64,000 nt of DNA, from the NCBI RefSeq assembly GCF_024464595.1, contig NZ_JANHAW010000001.1, positions 434,001-498,000 of the forward strand, given 5' to 3'. Positions 43,745 to 45,872 of this stretch are shown piece by piece. Every line of letters starts with the position of its first letter. The stretch's first letter is position 1. The stretch is from Halobellus litoreus. GTDB taxonomy: Archaea; Halobacteriota; Halobacteria; Halobacteriales; Haloferacaceae. The notes below the pieces were generated by a model, which saw only the letters and a program-made list of their open reading frames with translations, ran no database searches and was not told the DNA's origin. The translations under genes were made by a program, and so were the position numbers.

Positions 43745-43851
43745 ACTGGCGGCATCCCGACCCGCAGGCAAAACGGTACCGGACCGATCTCGACGCGCTT
43801 CGTCACCCCGTCGATAGCGGCCGGCGGCCCCGCGGGCCTCCGAGCCCGGGA

Positions 43852-43959
43852 CGGCTGTTCGGATCGGGTCGGCTGTTCGGGTTGGGGCGGCTGTTCGAGT
43901 CGGGTCGGCTGTCCGGGTCGGGGCGGCTATTCGGATCGGGTCGGCTATTCGGGCGTCCG
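43852..43959. repeat. Tandem repeat, six units of exactly 18 bp
   Basis: Units start at 43852, 43870, 43888, 43906, 43924 and 43942. Each begins CGGCTGTTC, CGGCTGTCC or CGGCTATTC and has GGGT or GGGG at its end (the sixth unit diverges). The last unit covers the stop codon of the minus-strand gene ending at 43945. The rest lies in the 200-bp gap before the DUF63 gene. Confidence 0.85.
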
Positions 43960-45201
43960 ACACTGCTGTCGGATGGGATTCATCACGAGCCAGACGGTGA
44001 GCACCGACAGCACGAGGACGATGGTGACCGCGGAGACGACGTAGCCGAGCGTGATCCGCTGGAAGATCATATTGATCAGCTGACCGGTCCCGACGATCAC
44101 GCCCAGGATACCGAACGCGGACAGCGACACCTGTTTGCCGGCCTGGTACCGCATATCGCGTCGGATCTGGATACTGTCGCCGACGCTGATGTTCAGGTTG
44201 TCGCGTTCGGTGCTCGGAATCCGGACGGACAGCGACTCCTCCTCGCCGTAGGAACTCTCCGGCGCGGTCTCGGGTTCGAGAGCCGTGTCCTCCTCCCACC
44301 CGGACTGACAGCGGACGTTGCGCCGTTTCTTCGTTCCCCGCATCCAACTGAGTAGCACCCGGTCGTTCTCCTCGATGCCGAGTCCCTTCATCGCGTCCTC
44401 GTTCATCCGGACGACGTTGCGGCCCTCGTCGCGGTCGTAGCCCGGGAGGACGCGGAAGTTCGAGTAACTGTAATCGACGAACCGCCGTCCGAGCCACTTC
44501 GAGGCCCGCTCTAGCGTCGTCTCCGCCTCCTCGACGTCGGTGAGTATCCGGAGCCTGACCTCGTTGTCCTCGCCCTCGTCCTTCGAGTCGACGCGGAGGA
44601 GCTTCCGGGTGATGCCGTTGATCCTGATCGTGTTGTCCGTCCGGTTCTTGTGATCGTACGTTTCGATCGGCAACTGGATTCGGGAACCCGTCTTCGGGTT
44701 GATCAGTTCACAGACGTCGCCCCGTTCCAGCGCGTCCGCACCGTCCATATCCCTCGCGGAGATGTACCCGGCGAGCCCCTCGGTCGTGATGTCGCGGTCC
44801 TCCTGCTCCCACGCCGAAACGCGGTGGACGTTCAGGGCGTCCAGCGTCTCCGTGTCGCACTCGCGGACCACGACCGACATATTCTCGTCGTCGTCGCCGC
44901 CCTCCGGGTCGAGGCCGATCTCCCGCTGGAGTCTGGTCCGGATGCAGGCCCACGGCCGACCCTCGTCGGTGGAGAACTCCGCGACGTCGTGGTCGTCGCT
45001 GAACGCGATGATCTGCGCCAGCGTCCCGTCGGTCTCCGCTCCCGGGGCCGACAGCTCGACGTACTCGTACTCCGCCGTGTCGTCGAGTCCCGAGAGGGTC
45101 GACTGCGGAACGATGACCGCATACCGGAACTTGTCGCCGTCCTCGAAGCAGTGGTTTCTGAAGTCCGAAATCGTCTTCGAGACTACCGTCGCGCTGCCCA
45201 A
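43945..45201 (-). CDS. Uncharacterised protein with barrel-like segments and a C-terminal membrane anchor
   Basis: 418 residues. Three stretches look like halves of AbrB or double-psi barrels: ALERGDVCELINPKTG (157-172), MNEDAMKGLGIEENDRVLLSW (266-286) and IPSTERDNLNISVGDSIQIRRD (328-349). Two hydrophobic helices follow (about 358-380 and 385-408). Thus a cytoplasmic binding module is held at the membrane. It overlaps the gamma-glutamylcyclotransferase-like gene by 19 bp and is probably made with it. I know no characterised homologue. Confidence 0.7.
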   Translation of the reverse strand: MGSATVVSKTISDFRNHCFEDGDKFRYAVIVPQSTLSGLDDTAEYEYVELSAPGAETDGTLAQIIAFSDDHDVAEFSTDEGRPWACIRTRLQREIGLDPEGGDDDENMSVVVRECDTETLDALNVHRVSAWEQEDRDITTEGLAGYISARDMDGADALERGDVCELINPKTGSRIQLPIETYDHKNRTDNTIRINGITRKLLRVDSKDEGEDNEVRLRILTDVEEAETTLERASKWLGRRFVDYSYSNFRVLPGYDRDEGRNVVRMNEDAMKGLGIEENDRVLLSWMRGTKKRRNVRCQSGWEEDTALEPETAPESSYGEEESLSVRIPSTERDNLNISVGDSIQIRRDMRYQAGKQVSLSAFGILGVIVGTGQLINMIFQRITLGYVVSAVTIVLVLSVLTVWLVMNPIRQQCRTPE

Positions 45202-45872
45202 CTGGAATCACCCGAGATCTCGTCGTTCTCCGCGACGGTGTTGAAGTCGCTCGCGTCGGTCGAGTCGTACGCGGTCTCGTACGTGGTCGCACAGAAGTCC
45301 CGGTAGAACTCCGTGGCCAACTCCGAGCCGTACATCTCCCCGATCATCATAATGCCGTTGACGATCCGGTTGTGGTACGTCCGGTTGCGCGGTTTCTCGG
45401 CGGTGAGATCCGTGTGCTCCGCGCTGTTGGCGAACAACCGGACTTCCGACAGGTCGGTGACGTCGTACTCGTCGATGCGGTCCGGATCGACGTAGTACTC
45501 GAGTGTCGGGTCCCGGACGCCGGTGTAATCGTACGGCGTCTCCGTCGCCTTGATCTGTGCTTCCTCTTCGGCGGTCAGCCCGAACACCACCACGCCGTTG
45601 ATCCAGTCGTTCGGATCGTCCGTGCGAACGGCTTCTAACATCGTTCCTCCCCGATCGGATTCCAGCGAGTAGTACCGGCGGAACCCCCAGATCTTCGCGG
45701 GGGCGTAGACGATCCGTTCGCGGCGTTCCTCCCACTTCTCCAGCGCGTTCGGTCTGACGGTCCGACTCGTGTTCCCCTCGTAGACGTCGTCGAGTTCCGG
45801 GTCGACGTTCTCGAACCGGGAGATCAGACTCGTCGGGAGAATCAGACTACCGTACCCGAATATCGGTGTCAT
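45183..45872 (-). CDS. Gamma-glutamylcyclotransferase-fold (AIG2/GGCT-like) protein
   Basis: 229 residues. The N-terminal FGYGSL (5-10) is the substrate-loop signature of the GGCT superfamily, and ETPYDY with Glu111 matches the catalytic Glu. WGFRRYYSLESDRGG is an extended loop. GGCT enzymes make 5-oxoproline from gamma-glutamyl compounds and related amides. It is the upstream member of an overlapping pair. Haloarchaea use gamma-glutamylcysteine, a conceivable substrate, but this is inferred. Confidence 0.8.
   Translation of the reverse strand: MTPIFGYGSLILPTSLISRFENVDPELDDVYEGNTSRTVRPNALEKWEERRERIVYAPAKIWGFRRYYSLESDRGGTMLEAVRTDDPNDWINGVVVFGLTAEEEAQIKATETPYDYTGVRDPTLEYYVDPDRIDEYDVTDLSEVRLFANSAEHTDLTAEKPRNRTYHNRIVNGIMMIGEMYGSELATEFYRDFCATTYETAYDSTDASDFNTVAENDEISGDSSWAARR

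Follow-up and report, generated by a model that had tools for sequence, protein, structure and literature searches.

The gene pair and its surroundings

Within a window of 64,000 nucleotides, by which we mean the whole stretch of Halobellus litoreus DNA analysed here (genome G000 of our set), we describe two overlapping genes on the minus strand. P0001 (45183..45872) starts with ATG and encodes a protein of 229 aa, recognised from its sequence and structural model as a GGCT-fold enzyme. P0002 (43945..45201) starts with TTG and encodes a membrane protein of 418 aa with three double-psi barrels, an assignment drawn from a Pfam match (CDC48_N, 1.4e-11), the structural model and the family alignment. 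The overlap of 19 bp (45183..45201, minus strand), already remarked on in an earlier sequence-only reading of this DNA, is confirmed by both open reading frames and contains the TTG start of P0002. Three further genomes (G287, G001 and G007) place a TTG start inside the same overlap, and this common start would fit translational coupling of the two genes. Both genes are under purifying selection, with dN/dS of 0.16–0.19 against two same-genus genomes, and can therefore be considered real. A sigma-70 promoter scan, which is unsuited to archaea, gave no result. Between the P0002 stop codon and the neighbouring DUF63 gene lies a GC-rich 18/36-bp tandem repeat with three 36-bp copies (window positions 43847–43953), which is absent from the same spot in locus L088.

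Folds and conserved residues of P0001 and P0002

P0001 adopts the GGCT fold in a model of mean pLDDT 86. Foldseek returned human ChaC2 as the top match (E 2.3e-4), and VIA-align placed human GGCT (2rbh) first, with Z 11.6 and an rmsd of 2.5 over 136 residues, followed by B. subtilis YkqA (11.0), yeast Gcg1 (5hwk, 10.5), ChaC2 (6ky1, 9.9) and GGACT (7–8). The published signature of this fold consists of a YGSL motif and one Glu (PMC7022552). The N-terminal YGSL motif of the cyclotransferases is present at residues 7–10 (45843..45854, minus strand), within the FGYGSL of residues 5–10 that the sequence-only reading had picked out, and its G, S and L are invariant in 15 relatives. Across these relatives, whose identity reaches down to ~20%, the invariant residues are G8, S9, L10, G63, R66, N92, E111, Y114, Y127, Y166, F189, F193 and T197. 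Glu111 (codon 45540..45542, minus strand) is also invariant in a non-halobacterial relative; in the model, it has the conserved W-x-N-G strand and one helix ahead of it in the chain, the order known from the GGCT family. Its invariance, the motif order and the family precedent (PMC7022552) suggest that Glu111 is the catalytic Glu.

At the sequence level, P0001 matched nothing in Pfam or NCBIfam, the glutathione-specific ChaC models included, and its cousins scored 18.7 bits against a ChaC-type model with a cut-off of 480, i.e. far below it. Searched against the sequences of solved structures, the GGCT profile yielded only noise, and the distant GGCT cousins reached an AIG2-like protein at E 0.07. 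P0001 shares with GGCT, ChaC2 and Gcg1 the fold (Z 9.9–11.6), the YGSL motif and the single conserved Glu, but differs from these enzymes and from GGACT in having no Pfam or NCBIfam match, in an insertion of ~30 aa after residue 21, present in the close group, and in its coupling to, or fusion with, a membrane barrel protein. Stand-alone haloarchaeal GGCT-fold genes outside any Pfam family (L080, L082–L086) form an unannotated enzyme group of their own.

For P0002, the sequence-only reading had marked three segments resembling barrels and, at the C-terminus, two helices, and the model (mean pLDDT 75) reproduces both: the element order b b a b b b a b recurs identically in residues 3–114, 119–219 and 246–348, and the helices 350–379 and 385–415 coincide with hydropathy peaks, and barrels and hairpin together account for the chain. 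All features lie on the minus strand. Barrel 3 (residues ~244–352; 44152..44472) is solidly assigned to the Cdc48/VAT N-domain type and is the only one of the three to combine a score above the curated CDC48_N cut-off (44.9 versus 35.1 bits) with the Cdc48-type double-psi fold. The P0002 profile retrieved the Cdc48/VAT N-domain barrels from the PDB at 6.8e-11, and the barrel itself matched Cdc48-type barrels in Foldseek (7.7e-7) and by structure alignment (Z 14.6, rmsd 1.8). The same profile also matches Cdc48-sized genes in ~300 haloarchaeal genomes. Barrel 2 (residues 117–226; 44524..44853) is well supported by the element order and by profile–profile comparison with barrel 3 (probability 93.5%, E 2.3e-7), and additionally shows a weak match to the double-psi barrel of aspartate decarboxylase. 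Barrel 1 (residues 1–115; 44857..45201) is a putative assignment resting mainly on the moderate-confidence model, its profile match to barrel 3 being weak (P 0.001, 21%).

The segments thus fold as barrels, all three in the model and the third also by Foldseek and structure alignment, but of the double-psi type of Cdc48/VAT N-domains instead of the AbrB type that had been suggested. An AbrB/MazE swapped-hairpin (antitoxin) reading was rejected, with both profiles below cut-off (MazE 15 versus 24.7 bits, AbrB 12.8 versus 28.3). In an unfoldase, Cdc48-type barrels are known to form the end that binds partners. P0002 resembles the N-domain of Cdc48/VAT/p97 in barrel 3, by profile (CDC48_N, about 1e-11) as well as by fold, but differs from these proteins in carrying three barrels in a row and, in a Pfam search up to E 10, neither the CDC48_2 half nor AAA ATPase modules; in their place stands the C-terminal membrane hairpin (residues 350–415; 43957..44154), which is seen in the model helices and in the hydropathy and is conserved across the family. 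Since positive residues flank the hairpin on both sides, the barrels are probably located on the cytosolic side. Cys298 is conserved in 14 of 17 P0002 relatives and the C-terminal Cys414, after the hairpin, is mostly conserved, which is unusual given that haloarchaeal proteins are cysteine-poor.

Distribution, fusion and movement of the pair

Close orthologues of both genes adjoin in G287, G001 and G007, as well as in G333 and G348, two genomes of the same genus. All of these share the overlapping arrangement of the present genome, as does the distant G143, in which a strongly diverged GGCT gene overlaps that of a 376-aa barrel-hairpin protein. Versions of ~25–30% identity, less diverged than the GGCT of G143, occur as convergent neighbours in G251 and G036; the barrel-protein relative of G036 (L030:6641-7969) has an in-frame TAG in its second membrane helix, reflecting either truncation or an assembly error. 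In Halobellus rarus (G348), the two genes are fused on contig C21 into one open reading frame of 660 codons (653 aa from the first ATG), in which a GGCT domain (23–221) is followed by the barrel protein (246–658). The fusion locus is free of N and the Glu is kept, and the same genome carries a separate pair on contig C2. A degenerate-pattern scan with P0002 alone matched one organism, Halobellus rarus. Outside the Halobacteria, a fragmented archaeal MAG of the same phylum (G487) has a GGCT gene that keeps the equivalent of Glu111 and is followed, after a gap of 1 base, by a gene whose 444-aa product contains CDC48_N (2.4e-12) as well as membrane helices. As the pair was found in only 1 of the 57 genomes of that class, contamination of this draft is possible.

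Among 391 Halobacteria, a GGCT relative occurs in 15 genomes and a relative of the main barrel-protein family in 14, with both together in 8–9 genomes against about 0.5–0.6 expected (hypergeometric P 1.4e-9 for 8 observed versus 0.54 expected, indicative only, since the genomes are related). Across ten pairs, the identities of the one gene track those of the other (r = 0.98), and the pair is present in ~2% of the genomes searched. The families hence occur together elsewhere, also as a single protein, and a chance overlap of unrelated genes is ruled out by the fusion, the co-occurrence and the matching divergence. The earlier proposal of a membrane-tethered module is well supported by the folding of the barrels, the co-occurrence of the families and the natural fusion, whereas its proposed action, to modify or remove gamma-glutamyl groups, is a prediction drawn from the fold and the invariant Glu. 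The two genes are strongly but not strictly associated: at least seven barrel-only loci lack a GGCT gene within ~5 kb (G288, G218, G062, G228, two in G067, G227, and also the distant G033), and six GGCT loci lack a barrel partner (G285, G110, G086, G300, G118 and G365), so that each gene can exist alone.

The pair lies between DUF63 and deoC in the present genome and in H. rarus and adjoins DUF63 in G333, and the nearest same-genus genomes without it have a DUF63–deoC gap of ~110–300 bp. It is thus a clean insertion between these two genes. In some genomes its GC content is foreign to the locus (0.42–0.46 in a locus of 0.60 for G001 and G007, 0.45 in 0.55 for G143), and taken together with the clean insertion this means that the two genes move jointly, as one cassette. 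No third partner gene was seen to be conserved, the flanks being different in every lineage. The two plasmid-borne relatives, entered as 'hypothetical protein' in NCBI records, are barrel-only and reside on haloarchaeal plasmids. One of them, on pSTJ001 of Halobacterium hubeiense (L133:14631-28107), neighbours a DUF4145 gene; the same stretch, possibly a defence island, also encodes an AAA protein, phospholipase D, HNH nucleases and an integrase. An origin of the pair from phages, viruses or plasmids was rejected, as the pair has no relatives in phages, viral contigs or plasmids.

A predicted membrane-bound enzyme complex and competing readings

We propose a model in which the two proteins form one membrane-bound complex of a GGCT-fold gamma-glutamyl cyclotransferase and a barrel adaptor, a prediction that we consider about evenly balanced between right and wrong. 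P0002 would be anchored by its C-terminal hairpin with the three double-psi barrels exposed to the cytosol, and the GGCT-fold protein would dock on it as the catalytic subunit. With Glu111 as general acid/base, the enzyme may cyclise the gamma-glutamyl group of its substrate intramolecularly, which would split the gamma-glutamyl bond and set free 5-oxoproline and the amine. For the barrels, the most likely task is that of Cdc48/VAT N-domains, the binding of a protein or peptide partner, through which the enzyme would be recruited to the membrane or gated there. GGCT-fold enzymes are otherwise known from thiol and gamma-glutamyl turnover, where they work as free enzymes. That such an enzyme can be activated by a partner protein has a precedent in RipAY, a ChaC-type effector of Ralstonia whose glutathione-depleting activity is turned on by thioredoxin (PMC4959522). 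The likeness lies in the combination of a GGCT-fold enzyme with a partner protein on which, in RipAY, activity depends (PMC4959522). The partner of RipAY is, however, the thioredoxin of the target cell, whereas that of P0001 is a dedicated and linked membrane barrel protein, and the pair, known from genes and models, gives no evidence of secretion or toxicity.

As substrate of this complex, our leading guess, still tentative, is gamma-glutamylcysteine, the main haloarchaeal thiol at ~4 mM (PMC7278568). GshA is present in this genome, as are two genes of the hydantoinase-B/oxoprolinase type that could recycle 5-oxoproline. Next, at a slightly lower probability, comes a peptide or protein with a gamma-glutamyl group that the barrels would present. 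Since GshA is general in haloarchaea and the pair is so rare, gamma-glutamylcysteine can be turned over routinely without it. A conditional role in stress, conflict or the editing of bound proteins is consequently just as probable as routine thiol turnover.

Among the alternatives, a mobile conflict module for defence or abortive infection appears unlikely, but is in keeping with the patchy spread, the clean insertion, the foreign GC content and the combination of a membrane protein with an enzyme. Here, the barrel protein would sense an intruder or membrane damage and switch on the GGCT-fold enzyme, so that gamma-glutamylcysteine is destroyed and growth stops. RipAY again offers a parallel, being a known growth-stopping effector of ChaC type that needs a partner for activity (PMC4959522), and the plasmid surroundings of one barrel-only relative include AAA, phospholipase D and HNH genes. 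Against this reading, the flanks of the pair are ordinary metabolic genes, PADLOC matched neither protein nor the fusion, no relatives of the pair turned up in PHROG, phages or viral contigs, and the neighbours (n=46) gave single generic defence-type matches with nothing consistent among them. With this lack of PADLOC and PHROG matches and of consistent defence neighbours, a known anti-phage defence system was rejected as an identity of the pair.

A quality-control or protein-editing device, in which proteins near the membrane would be captured by Cdc48-like barrels and relieved of a gamma-glutamyl group (an isopeptide, or the gamma-glutamyl part of S-bound gamma-glutamylcysteine) by the GGCT-fold enzyme, is equally doubtful. 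The N-domains of Cdc48 are the partner-binding part of the unfoldase (PMC5468458), and here three such barrels are chained without an ATPase; gamma-glutamylamines are substrates of GGACT, itself of the GGCT fold (PMC7022552), and Cys298 and Cys414 of the barrel protein, mostly conserved, would be in line with such a role. However, by Pfam, P0002 has no second half of the Cdc48 N-domain, which together with the first half forms the known adaptor groove, and protein-bound gamma-glutamyl modification is not established here for haloarchaea. A further and likewise improbable picture is that of an archaeal conflict or stress module spreading horizontally, with a membrane-anchored sensor of Cdc48-type barrels in control of a GGCT-fold enzyme that either depletes the gamma-glutamylcysteine pool or strips gamma-glutamyl groups from captured proteins. 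If true, this would be a new kind of archaeal two-component enzyme system. Least probable of all, the GGCT-fold protein could be a former enzyme that senses a ligand (a gamma-glutamyl compound or 5-oxoproline) and regulates the membrane barrel protein, for which its extreme sequence divergence from known GGCTs and a fusion that keeps both parts, yet is silent on which acts on which, could be cited, but the invariance of YGSL and Glu across very divergent relatives is what catalysis would lead one to expect.

Returning to the membrane-bound complex, its parts belong to known fold families, whereas the papers searched contain no description of the joined GGCT/barrel device. Here a GGCT-fold enzyme and Cdc48-type barrels make up, with no ATPase involved, a membrane device that distant archaea inherit and pass on as one unit. 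This suggests that the archaeal thiol pool is controlled locally or that a gamma-glutamyl group on bound proteins is edited enzymatically, either of which would be new biology that is directly testable with haloarchaeal genetics.

Two of the barrel-only loci deserve mention in their own right. In G062, the relative (L025:6164-7708) is a lone insertion in what appears, by sequence, to be a run of lysine-biosynthesis genes. In G033, a lone 313-aa barrel-plus-hairpin relative (L111:1159-2100) is located between dnaK-like and D-aminopeptidase-like genes, and the barrel-hairpin family is accordingly wider than the pair.
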